Virus record (IMG/VR): IMGVR_UViG_3300025096_000135
Coordinates: 1-23,703 of that record
Length of the DNA stretch: 23,703 nucleotides
Origin: a virus
Strand: one strand, 5' to 3'
Shown here in pieces: positions 1 through 21,188 of the stretch (within the stretch, counting starts at the first letter, position 1; each line of letters opens with the position of its first letter). The notes under the pieces are model-generated. The model had not been told where the DNA came from, ran no database searches, and saw only the letters and a program-made list of their open reading frames with translations. A program made the position numbers and the translations under genes.

Positions 1-199
1 AGGTGCCCTCATATTCAAATCCTGAAAAGTCCGCACCCAAGACGGAACATGCCACCTCACAATGACCAACTATTCTTCCAAATTCAAAACCTTCGTTGTA
101 TGTAATGGTGGCGAGAACCGTCCCAACTGCTGCGAAAAGAAGCATGATAGCGGCTCGTTTCCAATAGTTTTTTATAAAATTGATTATTTTCTTTAACAT
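1..199 (-). CDS. Small single-helix membrane protein, 3' end cut by window edge
   Basis: The frame opens at ATG 197-199 and stays open to base 1, giving 66 visible residues. The N-terminus is basic (MLKKIINFIKNYWKR). A hydrophobic segment follows at about residues 16-33 (AAIMLLFAAVGTVLATI) and reads as one transmembrane helix, or possibly an uncleaved signal anchor. After it comes an acidic, aromatic stretch with Cys47 and Cys51 spaced CxxxC. By the positive-inside rule the short N-terminus should be cytoplasmic, with the larger part outside the inner membrane. It starts 9 bases after the stop of the tubulin-like gene and is probably co-transcribed with it; the Shine-Dalgarno match (AAAGA) is weak. 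I do not recognise a function. A membrane partner of the tubulin-like protein or a lysis-related protein are both possible but unproven. Confidence 0.7.
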   Translation of the reverse strand, partial: MLKKIINFIKNYWKRAAIMLLFAAVGTVLATITYNEGFEFGRIVGHCEVACSVLGADFSGFEYEGT

Positions 200-208
200 A
201 TTATCTTT

Positions 209-1045
209 TTAATTATTCGTCTGATTTGTGTTGGCTACGACATAGCCATAATTCTGTTCATACGACGTAGAGTGAACTTGAAATGCTGCCCTGATATCTT
301 TATCGCTATTTTTATTGATATTCTCGGTTAGTCGCCGTAGTAGTTTACCATCAGCCTCTAATACCTTTGAGTTGATAGCATAATAATAACTCTTTTCGGA
401 GATATTGTCAAGGGAAAAAAATAGTTTTTCTTCTCCGCTGTCCACATCGACAACACCAATCGTGCTCACCGTCGCTGTTTCTTTAGACTCAAAGGCTGTT
501 TTATGAACTGGTGTGTGGTGATTATACACATTCACCATATGAATTGCCGATACCATTAAATCGTTTAACTTATCATAATAGCCAATAATGGGAACATCGC
601 CCAATATTGCTTCAAGCTTTTTATTGTCAACCAAATAAATGCGGCTAATGGCATGAGATCGAGCATATTCTTGTAAAACGTTTCGTACCAATCTTTCTTG
701 AAAAGTATTTGTTTCACCCAAAAACTCAACATCAGGCTTGATATAGAGAATATTCAAATTTTTATGAGATAGTTGTTGTAAGATCCCCAGCGAAGCAGCA
801 GACGTATATCCAGCACCTGAAACCACAAATAAAATATCGTCCGTTGCATCTTTAAAAAACGCCTTTAGAGAGGGAATATTTTTTTCATATTTTTCAGGGT
901 GATCGTAGCGTCTAAGGAGGTATACCCTTTCCTCACTGTTGTCTATGCTTTCACTATCAATCTTAAACACTTTATATTGAGGATGCTGGGAAAACTTTTC
1001 TGCTATGGCACACCCAGCCTTTCCAAGACCGATTATTGTATCCAT
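209..1045 (-). CDS. Divergent tubulin/FtsZ superfamily-like protein
   Basis: This 278-aa protein has the order of elements expected of a reduced tubulin/FtsZ fold. It begins directly with a beta strand and glycine loop, IIGLGKAGCAIAEKF (residues 4-18), comparable to the first FtsZ nucleotide loop. A strand followed by VSGAGYTSAASL (75-86) sits where FtsZ has GGGTGTG. Next come a strand (LNILYIKPD), a helix (QERLVRNVLQEYAR) and IYLVDNKKLEAIL (136-148), which parallels the FtsZ segment around its 'vIpNdrLl' strand and helix. A helix LNDLMVSAIHMVNVY (160-174) follows. The G-box is degenerate, so GTP binding or hydrolysis may be altered. At 278 aa it is shorter than FtsZ or phage PhuZ (roughly 300-400 aa). 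The start ATG overlaps the polymerase stop by 13 bases and has a GGGGGA Shine-Dalgarno. A Rossmann NAD-binding protein is the main alternative. The family assignment is inference from motif order. Confidence 0.55.
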   Translation of the reverse strand: MDTIIGLGKAGCAIAEKFSQHPQYKVFKIDSESIDNSEERVYLLRRYDHPEKYEKNIPSLKAFFKDATDDILFVVSGAGYTSAASLGILQQLSHKNLNILYIKPDVEFLGETNTFQERLVRNVLQEYARSHAISRIYLVDNKKLEAILGDVPIIGYYDKLNDLMVSAIHMVNVYNHHTPVHKTAFESKETATVSTIGVVDVDSGEEKLFFSLDNISEKSYYYAINSKVLEADGKLLRRLTENINKNSDKDIRAAFQVHSTSYEQNYGYVVANTNQTNN

Positions 1046-2235
1046 TCTATCCCCCGCATCGCGCCATATGATTTTCCAGCACTTACATTGACCTTAAACT
1101 TACCAAAAGGAGTTTGAGAAAAAATATTAATTAACTCTCCAATAGTTTCTCGCTCACAATCATCATAATCTATGATAATACTATCATGAAGTGTAAAGGA
1201 AATAAAAGATTTTTTACCCTTTAGTGTGTTTGCAATCTTAAATGCTCTGGATAACACCAGATCGCTTGTAGTGCTCTGTATTAAATAGTTTAGTGCGTGA
1301 TGTTTGTCCGATTCGATTGTTCTATCAAAATAGGTCGTCACCTGCTGTCCGTTAAAATATTTTTGCAATATACCCTCTCGATCATAATGCCGATTTGATA
1401 AATAGTCCTTAGCCTTCGGGTTATATAGCCATGCAAAAATGCGCTTTTTTGCTTCCTCGCGGGTGCCAATGCCACGATAGATATTATCAATATTCCACTG
1501 GTGGATGTCATCTTGTGGCTGCTCTTTCCCGCTTAATCCGAGAAGAACACGAAGCTCCGCAGCATTATAATCAAGCTCAACAAAATAATCATTAGCGGGT
1601 TTCAATATAGATCTATAATCAGCGTCTAAAGTTAATATTGGAAAACCTCCTTTATAAGTTGTCATTCTGCCGGTCTTTGTGCCGTAAATATTGTATGAAA
1701 TATATGGTTTAATGTGCTTGCTTTTTTTTAAAAAATTTCTGGTCTTGAAGTGGTGGCTTTCTCTGGCGATTTCCGCATAGTCAATGTTTAGCTTTTGCTG
1801 CCCGATGTTATATGTAAATTCTGCCAGCTTTCTCAGGAAGTCATAGTTCTCTGGAGTGTCATATGTTTTTATAATATGCTCAGTAATTTTATTCTTCATC
1901 TCACAATGCTCAAGAAGAAATCGCTGCGGGACAAGATCGTAGAAACAGTGCCTCTCAAGAGAAATTTTTGCTGTCGAAAACGACTTGTAGAATGCTCTCA
2001 TACGAGCATTAATCGCCTCCCAGCGATGTCTTAAAAAATCAGGACATACCTCATTCAATGATTTCCCTCCGACGAACAGGGAGGCAATCAAAGTGCTATT
2101 TTGAGCAAACATAGGGTTATAATTCCAAGTTGCGCTTACAGCGTCGAAGTTAAATTCTTCGCAATTATAAAGTAACTTACCATCATGGTATATGCCAACA
2201 CAATGCTGTTTATCATCTAATGCTTGGGCAAGCAA
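1033..2235 (-). CDS. polA: Family A DNA polymerase without 3'-5' exonuclease domain
   Basis: This 400-aa protein carries the palm and fingers motifs of family A polymerases. A TGRMTT segment (188-193) matches Pol I TGRLSS. Motif A is LDYNAAELRV (221-230), with catalytic Asp222. The O-helix pattern RxxxKxxxFxxxY is complete (Arg259, Lys263, Phe267, Tyr271). A Gln-containing helix NYLIQSTTSDL (316-326) corresponds to the Pol I QGTAAD region. Motif C is LHDS (349-352), with Asp351 but Ser in place of the usual Glu. Phe267 is at the Pol I 762 position. No exonuclease motifs are visible and the N-terminal ~180 residues are too short and unlike that domain. The only reasonable start is TTG at 2233-2235, just after an in-frame TGA and 3 bases from AGGTGA. 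It presumably acts in phage DNA replication or repair. Its place at the end of a virion gene run is unusual. Confidence 0.85.
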   Translation of the reverse strand: MLAQALDDKQHCVGIYHDGKLLYNCEEFNFDAVSATWNYNPMFAQNSTLIASLFVGGKSLNEVCPDFLRHRWEAINARMRAFYKSFSTAKISLERHCFYDLVPQRFLLEHCEMKNKITEHIIKTYDTPENYDFLRKLAEFTYNIGQQKLNIDYAEIARESHHFKTRNFLKKSKHIKPYISYNIYGTKTGRMTTYKGGFPILTLDADYRSILKPANDYFVELDYNAAELRVLLGLSGKEQPQDDIHQWNIDNIYRGIGTREEAKKRIFAWLYNPKAKDYLSNRHYDREGILQKYFNGQQVTTYFDRTIESDKHHALNYLIQSTTSDLVLSRAFKIANTLKGKKSFISFTLHDSIIIDYDDCERETIGELINIFSQTPFGKFKVNVSAGKSYGAMRGIEWIQ

Positions 2236-13515: not shown

Positions 13516-16485
13516 TTAATCTTCAAAGCTCGCACCTGTATTTGTGATAACAAAATCAAGAGCAATAAACTCAATTGCGCGAGCAGGCTTCAAGAAGATC
13601 TTAGCATACAAGATATTTCTATCAATCAACTCAGGAGTTGTCGTAGTTTCATCAAGCACAACCTTGAAATCTGTGAGTCCGAGTCGCGCCTGTACACTCC
13701 GCAAGAAAGGATTGACTTTATTCAAGAACCTATCCCAAGTTGCTTGTACATTCTGATCAAACAAAATTGTAGTTGCCATTCTTGAAATTTCTTTCTTAAC
13801 AAAAATCATCAAGCGTCGAACATTAATTCGATCAAGTGCCGATGGTGTTACTTGCAATGTCTTTTGACCAAAGATTACGATGCCCTCTGATGGGAACGTG
13901 GCAATTGGATTAATATTTGCTTCGTAAAGATCGTCACGATTCCTAGAAGTTAATCTTTCACGAGTCTGAATTACTGGTAGTCCAGCGGAGCCTTCGGTTA
14001 ACCCTCCTCTGGTAAAGCCAGCGGGGGCAAACCAAAGCTCGCTCTTCTTCTGTGCGCTGGAAAATGTTCCAAGCGCTACAATACTGGGGGGTGCCCAAAG
14101 CAGGGCATTGCTTATGGTATCACGAATTTGTACCCATGGATAATAAGCACATCCATAACTTGAGTTCAGTTTTCTATTTCTTAAGTTTGTTACTGCGGTC
14201 GAAACGGATCCCAGGTTGGCACTTACTGAATTTGTATTCTCTGTCTCTGCATAGAATCCGGTCTTAAGATCGACAACTGCGAGCGAATCTCCGCGAGCCT
14301 CGCAAACCTCAATCATATGAGCGGTAAGAGGCTCGTCCCAAATACCAGGGAGTGCCATTAAATTGTACTCTGCAACTTCTGGATCTGCAATTGCGTCGAT
14401 TGCGCGTCTAACGGAATAGTGCCCGTAATTACCAACATCGGTACCGTCAGCAAGATCTGTGTTATTAAATGGTTCTTTTTGTCTAATGTTTAAGCCATTA
14501 AATCCGCCATGTAGAGGCACAGTAAAACGATTGTAACCTTCGTCTAGAATTTCTGTATATGTTCCACTGATTGCGGTATAAGACAAACCGGCTCTGCGCG
14601 AACCAGATGTGTAAACTGCTACGCCGACTCCGAGGCCATTAGGGTTCGCAGTTGTATGGGCAGAGGAACTGAGTTCATCAAGTGAGAATAAATATGAGTA
14701 TTCGGTAGCTCCTGTCTTGTTAAACGAGTCTCCATCGGCTGGCTGCGGATAAAGCATATCTCCATAACTGTCCTCGAATCTGTTATTCGAGGCTTGTGTA
14801 GAGTCTATTCCGAAATAGGCATCTTTGGGATTTGGCACACCACCGTCAGAAGCACTTACTCGCAATGGAATAGCTGGATAGACCGCTTTCAAGGATGCGG
14901 CACACCCGTCGAGGTGCTCTCCTATGTTGCCTGACACATTCAAAAATGCTTGAACGGCACCCACGACGTGTTGCGTTCCTGCAATTTTTGTGCCGCCAAA
15001 AACCCAGTTGTTCTGACCAGATGCATCAGGATTGGTGGGGGACGATGCACTAACGTATGACCAAGAATTTGGTCGTAATGGTCCATAAGATCCGAATGGT
15101 AGATATCGTGCGTCGGTGGCACCGGCATCAACATCAGAATTTACTTCAACACGAATATACTTTGATGCATTTAGGTAATTGCCGAAGACCTTGTGTCGTC
15201 TCTCTACGTCATCCCATGTAAGATACTGATCTCCGATTACTCTTGCAATATACTTGGAAGAATTGGGATTAAGATTAACAGAACTGTAGCGTTCTACAAC
15301 CACAGGGGCAAGATCGTTATCCCTTGCATCTCTAACCTCCACGCTAAAAGATCCGTAAGGATCCTCGTCGTTAGGCGAGACTTTGATATCTGCAATAGAT
15401 ATCTTGAGTTTTTTCATCTCGTCTTCACCAGACCCATCAAGCGTATGGAATTTGAATAACTTCTTTACTCGATTGGTGTCTGTAATATCATAATCTGCAT
15501 AAGATGTTTGGAGATCCTGTGAGACAAGCCACGGAGTTTGAGCGGCTTGAAATCCCATGCGGAAGTTCGAAGCATACACAGCGGTAGTCGATGCGCTTGC
15601 AATACCGAGAATGGCACCCCAAGCCTGTCCCGCTGAAGAACCAGTGGCATATTTTGCAAGGTGTCTTTCGAAGGAACCTCCCAGCCAATAAGTCTTTCGT
15701 TGTGCAGTGCTGGTAACTGCATCGGTGGTTAGTGTCGGATTGGTGTTGAACACCTTTCTAATATATCGATTAGATGATGGAGTAAAGTTAAAAGCTGTTT
15801 GCTTTTTAATATTGCCGTCTGCGTCTGTAATGATGGCATAAAATTCGTTAGCCACTGCGCCAGCAACGTCCGTCGTAGGTGACGGAGTATTTGAAGATAA
15901 TGATCTAATGAGCGCCGCACTACCAGTCGTAATAGTTCCGCCGGTACCGTCTACGGCACAATCTCTCAATGTTCCCGAGAGCACAATGGATCCTTCATTT
16001 AAATACCAGACAGCGGCGAGGGCTCCTGTCATCTCATAGCGGTCAGCCGCTGGTCTACTACCCGATGGCCAAACAAATAATCCATATGCTCCACCATTGG
16101 TCGCATTTGACGTAGTGTTGGTTGCATCGGTATCCCAACCAGCTTTTCCAGCAGAAGTTGCATTTGAGCTTTGTGCGCCAAGGAGACGAACCATTGTAAC
16201 GGCATTGCTATTTCTCAAATACGCTTGTGCTGCATATGCTGCATAAGTAGGGGCAAGATAATTTCCATCACGCCATACATCACCACTTCGGCCACCAGGA
16301 ATTGGATTACCGAAGATTTGAACAAATTCGGAAAATGAGTTAACCTTAACAGGTCTCATTCCTGGTCCGCGTTCTGTTCGCCCTATAATTACTGGTCCCA
16401 TTTCTTCTGGGAGGGCTGGTAATTCCGAATTGTCTATCTCATTAATAAAGATGCCGGGTGAAATAAACTTGAAAGATTTAGCCAT
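13516..16485 (-). CDS. Contractile tail sheath protein (gp18-like), unusually long
   Basis: This 989-aa protein begins with the sheath signature FISPGIFINEIDNSELPALP and continues with GPVIIGRTERGPG and SFSEFVQIFGNP. The conserved C-terminal part includes NINPIATFPSEGIVIFGQKT, INVRRLMIFVKKEI and VQARLGLTDFKVVLDE, and ends with the strand used in inter-subunit linking (ARAIEFIALDFVITNTG). T4 gp18 is 659 aa. The extra length lies between about residues 110 and 640, Ser/Thr/Asn/Gly-rich with many Tyr, as expected for outward-facing insert domains. The sheath contracts to drive the tube into the host. AAGGAG lies 10 bases before the ATG. The neighbours (gp15-like upstream, gp19-like downstream) keep T4 order. 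Confidence 0.95.
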   Translation of the reverse strand: MAKSFKFISPGIFINEIDNSELPALPEEMGPVIIGRTERGPGMRPVKVNSFSEFVQIFGNPIPGGRSGDVWRDGNYLAPTYAAYAAQAYLRNSNAVTMVRLLGAQSSNATSAGKAGWDTDATNTTSNATNGGAYGLFVWPSGSRPAADRYEMTGALAAVWYLNEGSIVLSGTLRDCAVDGTGGTITTGSAALIRSLSSNTPSPTTDVAGAVANEFYAIITDADGNIKKQTAFNFTPSSNRYIRKVFNTNPTLTTDAVTSTAQRKTYWLGGSFERHLAKYATGSSAGQAWGAILGIASASTTAVYASNFRMGFQAAQTPWLVSQDLQTSYADYDITDTNRVKKLFKFHTLDGSGEDEMKKLKISIADIKVSPNDEDPYGSFSVEVRDARDNDLAPVVVERYSSVNLNPNSSKYIARVIGDQYLTWDDVERRHKVFGNYLNASKYIRVEVNSDVDAGATDARYLPFGSYGPLRPNSWSYVSASSPTNPDASGQNNWVFGGTKIAGTQHVVGAVQAFLNVSGNIGEHLDGCAASLKAVYPAIPLRVSASDGGVPNPKDAYFGIDSTQASNNRFEDSYGDMLYPQPADGDSFNKTGATEYSYLFSLDELSSSAHTTANPNGLGVGVAVYTSGSRRAGLSYTAISGTYTEILDEGYNRFTVPLHGGFNGLNIRQKEPFNNTDLADGTDVGNYGHYSVRRAIDAIADPEVAEYNLMALPGIWDEPLTAHMIEVCEARGDSLAVVDLKTGFYAETENTNSVSANLGSVSTAVTNLRNRKLNSSYGCAYYPWVQIRDTISNALLWAPPSIVALGTFSSAQKKSELWFAPAGFTRGGLTEGSAGLPVIQTRERLTSRNRDDLYEANINPIATFPSEGIVIFGQKTLQVTPSALDRINVRRLMIFVKKEISRMATTILFDQNVQATWDRFLNKVNPFLRSVQARLGLTDFKVVLDETTTTPELIDRNILYAKIFLKPARAIEFIALDFVITNTGASFED

Positions 16486-19355: not shown

Positions 19356-21188
19356 TTAAACGAGGTCTACGACGACAACTACTCCATACATGTCAGGACG
19401 AACCATCTTCTTACCGTAGCGCGTCATGACTCCCTTGCGGGGCACGAAGTCTTCGGTTCCGAAGATAGTGGGCGTGACTTGTAGCGGAACATATGGAGCA
19501 TAGACGTATCCACTCTCCAAGAAAGATCCGCCCTTACGACCAACGAGAACAATGTTCCGTGGGAAGTAGGGGTCAACATAGACATCCCATTTCTTGGAAA
19601 GAGCACCTGTCTTGACTGCACCAACGGTACCCCTGTCAACATCACCAGTGACATTTGCACGGAATCCCGCAGTAAACTCAAGGACGTTAGCAACTTCAGG
19701 TCCAACGACGATGAAGTTAGCGCCACCTCTTAGAGTCTTACGGTGAATCTGTGCCGAAACATCATTGATTGTTTCAACAAGAGTCTCATACCATTCGGAA
19801 ACGGTACCCGTGAAGTCGGGAGTTGCTGTAGTGGCACCAATCTCCAGACCACCTGAGTTGCCTGTTCTGTTAACAAACTTGCCAGCGTGACGTGACCAGT
19901 AATATGTACCAGCGGTTGCACCCTTGACTAGATCCTCAAGAATCTCACGATCAATTTCTAGAGCAATTTGCTCAGAGAGAATTGAAGTAAGCTCGACCTC
20001 GGCATCCAAGTTGTGATAGGCATTAAGATCCTGTCCCAACTCAGGTGTCCACTTGGCCTTGAGCTTCTTGGTAATCGCGGTGATACTTACAGAATCAACC
20101 TTGATGTCGATCTCGGGGATAAGCCCGTCTTCTGTTCCAACTGCGTTGGTTGCTTCCTCAAGTCCCCAGAGCGGATCACCAACAACGGAGCCGACTGCGT
20201 TACTGACAACGAAATCGTCATCAATAGAATATTCAACCGTGACGGTGTTGTCACCACCAGTACCGTCGCCATCGGTATAAGAAGCTGACAAGTTCGCAAT
20301 TGTGCGAGTATCAGAATGGAAGAAGACCAACACATGTGTCGGATCACCATCTGACGGTTGCCACAATCCTCTGTCAGAACCAGAGAAAGCAGTCAAACGA
20401 CGTGCTTGGCCATCAGCAGCGTTACCCAGGGTACCAGAGACACCAACCAAGTTATCTAGGTTAAGCTGTGTTAACGAGCTAAGCAGAATTTTACCAACAT
20501 ACACGTTGGTTGTTCCAGAAGTGAAATCTGGATCGTAGCGGCAAAGCCGCTCCAGTGTGCCTGATGCTGCGATACAAGCCGCGTTAGTGCCCGCCAGTCC
20601 AGCAGAATAAAGCCTAGCTTGCTTGAGTTCTCCATCACCCATGCCGCTTGCACCAAAACACCCTGAAATTACAGGAATAATATTTGCAGACACGGATCCT
20701 GTGGGAGAAGAATAACCATTGTTTAGGTTATAAAAACTTCTCTCATTGTCTGGAGCCGATAAGCTAACACCACCGGTAATTTCGGCACCGACCTTTCCGC
20801 CACCATACAGTGAACCAGGGTTGATTAAACCACCCCTAGCACCTGTGTCATCCGACGTGGTGAAGTCAAGGAAGAAAATGAGCCCACTTGGGAGACTCAT
20901 TGGTTGAACACTGACGAGATCGTTAGCGATCAGTCCGCCGAATACACGGCGAACGATTGGAAATGCAACAGCCGCGAAGCCCTCGACATCACCACCAGCC
21001 ATTGACGAAACCTCACGAAGAAGCTCCTTGGCTTGATTTTCAAGAAGACGAGCCATGCTGTTTCTTGTTTGGTCATTGTCTAAACCTTCCAGAAGTCCGG
21101 TGCGTTCCCACTTTGTTAAAAGTGCAGCACCTTCTTTTGAAAGGTCTCTATCAACAATACCTTCAGTTAATTTATTTAATACGGACAT
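19356..21188 (-). CDS. Major capsid protein (gp23-like)
   Basis: This 610-aa protein shows T4 gp23-type landmarks. VRRVFGGLIANDLVSVQPMS (79-98) parallels gp23 'VRRAIPNLIAFDICGVQPM'. ITAITKKLKAKWTPELGQDL, LDAEVELTSILSEQIALEID and the C-terminal GYVYAPYVPLQVTP with MTRYGKKMVRPDMYG follow in order. T4 gp23 is 521 aa; extra Gly/Ser/Asp-rich sequence is visible around residues 115-350 and may form a surface domain. The N-terminus has several L-x-E sites (residues 7-9, 32-34, 48-50) like the T4 prohead protease cleavage consensus, so it may be trimmed on maturation. The start overlaps the scaffold stop by one base (TAATG). GGAGG lies in the end of the scaffold gene. Confidence 0.93.
   Translation of the reverse strand: MSVLNKLTEGIVDRDLSKEGAALLTKWERTGLLEGLDNDQTRNSMARLLENQAKELLREVSSMAGGDVEGFAAVAFPIVRRVFGGLIANDLVSVQPMSLPSGLIFFLDFTTSDDTGARGGLINPGSLYGGGKVGAEITGGVSLSAPDNERSFYNLNNGYSSPTGSVSANIIPVISGCFGASGMGDGELKQARLYSAGLAGTNAACIAASGTLERLCRYDPDFTSGTTNVYVGKILLSSLTQLNLDNLVGVSGTLGNAADGQARRLTAFSGSDRGLWQPSDGDPTHVLVFFHSDTRTIANLSASYTDGDGTGGDNTVTVEYSIDDDFVVSNAVGSVVGDPLWGLEEATNAVGTEDGLIPEIDIKVDSVSITAITKKLKAKWTPELGQDLNAYHNLDAEVELTSILSEQIALEIDREILEDLVKGATAGTYYWSRHAGKFVNRTGNSGGLEIGATTATPDFTGTVSEWYETLVETINDVSAQIHRKTLRGGANFIVVGPEVANVLEFTAGFRANVTGDVDRGTVGAVKTGALSKKWDVYVDPYFPRNIVLVGRKGGSFLESGYVYAPYVPLQVTPTIFGTEDFVPRKGVMTRYGKKMVRPDMYGVVVVVDLV

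Follow-up and report, generated by a model that had tools for sequence, protein, structure and literature searches.

The window analysed here, which is the whole 23,703-bp IMG/VR virus record IMGVR_UViG_3300025096_000135, carries on its minus strand a gene, termed D, that is flanked by a DNA polymerase gene and by a small gene cut by the record end (Table 1). A single query with D recovered 92 close relatives in IMG/VR, and a profile search identified at least 587 related stretches in the same collection; the contigs bearing D reach 184 kb. The reading frames in the relatives' loci run uninterrupted up to their stop. Among close pairs of relatives, dN/dS ranged from 0.06 to 0.15, with substitutions falling mostly at third codon positions, which shows that the family is under purifying selection. 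The number of relatives and the dN/dS values jointly establish that D is a real gene and not a chance reading frame.

Table 1. Positions of D, its parts and its flanking genes in the window, and of the Z gene in the large contig G003.
Feature	Position	Strand	Residues or length	Basis or remark
Small predicted membrane protein	2..199	(-)		Downstream of D; cut by record end
D, degenerate tubulin/FtsZ-fold protein (predicted)	209..1045	(-)	278 aa	ATG at 1045, stop ends at 209; AlphaFold2, Foldseek, relatives, dN/dS
C-terminal (activation) domain, strands S7-S10 and H10, without H9	227..469	(-)		DSSP, Foldseek
Region of T7 and H8 in FtsZ	470..520	(-)		In D no helix, no invariant acid
Core helix H7 with Tyr157 and Asn161	521..580	(-)	156-175	AlphaFold2 model, column counts
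Strand S6 and helix H6, IYLVDNKKLEAIL, with putative base-contact Asn141	602..640	(-)	136-148	Column counts, hhalign
Eroded T4 G-box, SGAGYTSA	797..820	(-)	76-83	Column counts
T1 phosphate loop, IIGLGKAGCAIA	1001..1036	(-)	4-15	Column counts, hhalign
Stand-alone family-A DNA polymerase domain	1033..2235	(-)	400 aa	Upstream of D
Z gene of G003	L171:1027-2121 (about 103.4-104.5 kb)	(-)		Relatives L174-L253

The polymerase was identified by matches to Pfam DNA_pol_A (PF00476, E 4.8e-11) and to a PHROG DNA polymerase family (2.9e-14), and the 3' end of its gene overlaps the start of D by 13 nt. Read by eye, its usual family-A HDE motif seems to be HDS. This arrangement is pervasive across the family: a polA gene precedes D in 43 of 45 non-redundant loci and lies upstream of it in all 147 scorable loci, a set that includes near-duplicates, overlapping D in 107 of them, and a gp32-like single-stranded DNA-binding protein (SSB) is encoded by the first or second gene after D in 45/45 non-redundant loci. 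Further downstream follow RecA/UvsX, often dCMP deaminase, 5'-3' exonuclease, DnaB and ribonucleotide reductase (RNR), and the identities of the SSB, RecA, dCMP deaminase, exonuclease and DnaB neighbours were confirmed by family searches. The polymerase neighbour and T4-like setting claimed in an earlier note on this sequence were thus upheld. Homologues of the small protein at the record end are found directly after D in close relatives; no family match was obtained for it, and its membrane segment was judged by eye. In the close relatives (e.g. L084:10839-11126) this small protein has a conserved GHCEV-C tail. In several loci a protein that resembles FKBP by eye is encoded between SSB and UvsX (e.g. 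L111:11795-12310).

The same module occurs without D elsewhere. The cultured Far-T4 phage immuto presents the order polA, SSB, RecA, exonuclease, DnaB and RNR, and a diverged D was sought in it between polymerase and SSB; the two small proteins encoded there bore no resemblance to D on reading. In a sister clade of uncultured phages, other small genes occupy that place. Since immuto and the sister clade do without it, D is not in itself required for the replication module.

Beyond IMG/VR, D appears to have gone undescribed. No relative was found when three members of the family were compared by tblastn with 50,697 GenBank phage records, the third query returning only two insignificant matches, and D is absent from the cultured phages RM378, immuto and Mel-JY01. 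The family lies outside Pfam, PHROG, NCBIfam and all GenBank-phage families, which bears out the earlier proposal of a new branch. A GTDB host assignment was considered and rejected, because the sole match, within a WOR-3 "chromosome", turned out to be a binning contaminant; this short viral contig with D (L270, CP070664.1 2243213-2260046) lies between 100-N spacers in the WOR-3 metagenome-assembled genome.

A predicted tubulin/FtsZ fold with eroded motifs

The structure of D was predicted with AlphaFold2 from a 24-sequence alignment, yielding a model of high confidence (pLDDT 91.9, pTM 0.90) that comprises two domains, a GTP-binding domain and, beyond the core helix H7, a C-terminal activation domain. 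When the model was compared with the PDB using Foldseek, 50 of the 50 listed matches were FtsZ, TubZ or gamma-tubulin, with alignments spanning about 310 columns and the whole length of the protein. The best of these was Staphylococcus aureus FtsZ (3vo8, E 1.5e-13, TMq 0.73, 12% identity), followed closely by Bacillus cereus TubZ (4ei7, E 1.7e-13, TMq 0.71), whereas PhuZ of phage Noxifer, although likewise a phage-encoded tubulin fold, was matched only at E 8e-7. The best viral structural match (TMq 0.81, E 4e-13, 16% identity) was A0A6J5RW92, annotated as "FtsZ Cell division GTPase" from an uncultured Caudovirales phage, which at 452 aa is much longer than D and is itself available as a predicted model only. 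The structure is a prediction, but a tubulin/FtsZ fold is very likely on this evidence, and the reduced FtsZ/tubulin core proposed in the earlier note is supported. The observations that the note had said would refute its reading, namely a Rossmann-type fold lacking the tubulin intermediate domain or best matches to dehydrogenases, were not made: D has the C-terminal activation domain, and no dehydrogenase figures among its best structural matches.

Sequence searches, on the other hand, gave nothing significant, and the fold was recognized by structure prediction alone. Only weak matches were obtained in Pfam, PHROGs and NCBIfam. The Pfam Tubulin family (PF00091) was matched by 8 of 64 diverse members with E values up to 1 (best E 0.019), and D does not meet its gathering score. 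The commonest weak Pfam match was instead the NAD-binding family TrkA_N (14/64 members, best E 0.0011), which in the D protein of the window covers residues 4-42 only. Neither tubulin nor any other significant match was found when the D sequence profile was run against the PDB, and phmmer ranked FtsZ first among PDB sequences, yet at E 0.34. In the profile-profile comparison that the earlier note had proposed as a check, the two highest hhalign scores were those of the Z family described below (29.7) and FtsZ (26.5), versus 14-22 for seven control families; these alignments are weak on their own, but they are colinear through T1, T4, S6 and H7.

The motif content of the family was assessed through column counts over 64 diverse members. 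The glycines of the T1 loop (GxGxxG, as in FtsZ), which hhalign aligns with the FtsZ T1 loop IGVGGAGCN, are nearly invariant (G6 63/64, G8 64/64, G11 63/64), as is C12 (61/64). The T4 box, by contrast, has decayed to a G-S/A-G-x-I-S-G consensus in place of GGGTG[TS]G, with G77 and G79 each retained in 55/64 members and S82 in 53/64, while the Thr and the following Gly of the canonical signature are not conserved. Asn141, present in 63/64 members, aligns with the Asn of the FtsZ VIPN motif, and H7 holds Tyr or Phe at position 157 (56/64), N161 (63/64) and H169 (64/64). In tubulin, guanine is contacted by N206, Y224 and N228; Asn141, the aromatic residue at 157 and Asn161 occur in the same order and at nearly the same spacing. 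The guanine-contact positions hence appear to be retained, with the caveats that the register within H7 (as tubulin Y224/N228) was inferred from spacing and that nucleotide binding itself is an inference.

The features tied to catalysis show the opposite pattern. No invariant acid corresponding to the T7 motif NxDxx[DE] was found between H7 and S7, where position 189 is E or D in 44/64 members. Helices H8 and H9 are missing from the D model according to DSSP, whereas both are present (H8 at 250-257) in the Z protein predicted in the same way. The T3 and T4 loops that line the subunit interface are altered as well. The FtsZ-type conserved C-terminal tail, which binds membrane anchors, is also not present in D, the chain ending soon after the last strand, and 113 distinct C-termini from the family proved short and variable. 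A sliding-clamp-binding C-terminus, suspected from tails reading PLDLFA, was rejected, as the pattern occurs in 4 of these 113 tails. The erosion of the T4 box and the loss of the T7 acids and of H8 and H9 are well supported by alignment and model, and by its motifs D is not an active GTPase member of the superfamily, the absence of hydrolysis being inferred from motifs and model. Of the claims made in the earlier note from the letters alone, the feature order (glycine loop, SGAGYTS loop, strand, long helix), the degenerate GGGTGTG signature and the short length of the protein were all borne out. The loss of the signature motifs explains why D had remained unannotated until now.

Carrier phages and a second, intact tubulin

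Other genes of the window specify a T4-like capsid protein together with T4-like proteins of the sheath, tube, head-tail adaptor and baseplate, and the carriers of D are uncultured marine T4-like phages with Gp23 capsids. A branch of the capsid tree with modest support (84/70) sets them apart, together with a fragment carrying only Z (G022). The nearest capsid relative of the window is the large contig G003 (71% identity), which carries both D and Z, and the closest cultured capsid relatives are the Far-T4 phages Rhodothermus RM378 and Flavobacterium immuto as well as Microcystis phage Mel-JY01. The Far-T4 group, near which the D carriers stand, also takes in contigs from fresh water. Hosts predicted for Far-T4 phages are Bacteroidota/Flavobacteriales (PMC7198788, PMC13037479), and the words "tubulin" and "FtsZ" are both absent from the Far-T4 genome paper (PMC4360716). 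Two structural proteins of the window are long: the tail sheath (13516-16485, minus strand) has 989 aa and the major capsid protein (19356-21188, minus strand) 610 aa, versus 523-542 aa in cultured relatives.

About 83 kb from D, G003 encodes a 364-aa FtsZ-like protein, Z, whose family presents an invariant GGGTGS box and the T7-like acids D249 and D252 and matches solved CetZ/FtsZ structures in the PDB (E 6e-10); its best viral structural match is again A0A6J5RW92. No Z was found by tblastn in GenBank phages. Beside the Z gene of G003 lies one that weakly matches a late sigma factor. Contigs carrying Z, which come from large uncultured T4-like phages, reach 281 kb, and D and Z occur together on at least seven contigs, G003 and 6 of the 20 large Z contigs, although the two genes are not adjacent and most large Z contigs lack D. 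Conversely, no Z was seen on G001 (184 kb) or G002 (172 kb), both of them large contigs with D, from which it follows that D is probably independent of Z, with the reservation that these records may be incomplete.

Possible roles of D

The fold, the family, its conservation, the motif losses and the gene context are shown by computation; what D does has to be inferred, in the absence of biochemical data. The explanation we favor is that D is a tubulin/FtsZ-fold protein which, with its T1 loop and its positions for guanine recognition retained, would bind guanine nucleotide without the usual subunit-to-subunit hydrolysis and would not form a standard tubulin protofilament through T7 and H8. It would then most likely act at the phage replication centre, as part of it or as a scaffold, clustering or positioning the replisome, and would be static or nucleotide-switched. 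The replication-centre role is proposed because of the fixed place of D between polymerase and SSB and the overlap with the polymerase gene in most relatives; gene position, however, bears only indirectly on function. Moreover, none of the sequence-profile matches to the superfamily reaches significance by itself. The complete statement, a non-hydrolysing tubulin-fold protein at the replication centre, is consequently one that we judge slightly more apt to fail than to stand. The earlier suggestion of a non-hydrolysing or regulatory filament protein likewise remains unproven, since neither filaments nor GTP binding nor a regulatory role has been shown.

Several other explanations can be set against this one. 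D could imitate FtsZ and so cap or poison the ring formed by the host protein, adding to a filament end, halting growth and blocking division. It lacks the T7/H8 longitudinal face while keeping the base-contact residues of the other face, as such a cap might, and other phages do use dedicated FtsZ inhibitors, including lambda Kil (PMC3961180), T5 Hdi (PMC10714956) and P1 Icd (PMC11897509). These inhibitors, however, are not described as FtsZ-fold mimics, the T3/T4 interface loops of D are themselves altered, and D sits beside replication genes at every one of the 45 non-redundant loci; we regard capping as unlikely. It is similarly doubtful that D is a partner or regulator of Z, in which case Z would hydrolyse GTP and polymerise while D caps, nucleates or co-assembles with it. 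The co-occurrence on G003 and other contigs and the intact box, acids and CetZ/FtsZ match of Z speak for this possibility; the lack of any Z on G001 and G002 (with the same reservation on completeness), the predominance of large Z contigs without D and the separation of the two genes speak against it.

D might instead polymerise by itself as a PhuZ-like protein and centre phage DNA through an unconventional interface replacing T7/H8. A phage tubulin with a DNA-centring role is known (PMC4244570), D has the tubulin fold, and its place in the replication module would suit DNA positioning. Nevertheless, the protofilament interface common to tubulin, FtsZ and phiKZ TubZ, the last a competent GTPase, consists of T7, S9 and the base of H8 (PMC3678025), and D lacks H8 and the T7 acids. 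In addition, D matches PhuZ less well in structure than it does FtsZ or TubZ, and the nucleus-forming jumbo phages that encode PhuZ or phiKZ TubZ differ from the D carriers, which have T4-like Gp23 capsids. A self-assembling PhuZ-like filament therefore seems improbable, and D, which lies in a replication module, shows no specific likeness to PhuZ. TubZ, an active GTPase of DNA partition, works with an adjacent DNA-binding partner, TubR; the conserved neighbours of D are polA and SSB, and the small adjacent reading frames were neither folded nor deeply searched. Finally, the likeness to tubulin could be superficial and D a Rossmann enzyme or sensor that binds a dinucleotide, as the prevalence of TrkA_N among its weak Pfam matches might suggest. 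The TrkA_N score of the D protein of the window lies below the Pfam cutoff, N141 and N161 are conserved, the profile alignment to FtsZ is colinear, and every listed PDB match is to the tubulin superfamily over the whole length, so that a Rossmann identity was rejected as very unlikely. The other three alternatives, in which D caps FtsZ, partners Z or assembles into filaments of an unconventional kind, cannot be dismissed.

Returning to the replication-centre reading, a bolder version of it can be entertained as a possibility: a catalytically dead tubulin-fold protein would have been taken into the DNA replication machinery, where it would sense nucleotide or serve the replisome as a scaffold, being produced together with the polymerase and forming no cytoskeletal filament; part of the clade has it alongside an intact phage tubulin. 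The known phage tubulins, PhuZ and TubZ among them, have GTPase activity. The family described here, with a degenerate tubulin fold and hundreds of members, is fixed within the replication module of uncultured marine T4-like phages, some of whose genomes encode two tubulins. If D does act with the replisome, it would be a case of the tubulin fold put to use in DNA synthesis instead of in movement or division, and would offer a natural experiment on how much the fold can do without hydrolysis.
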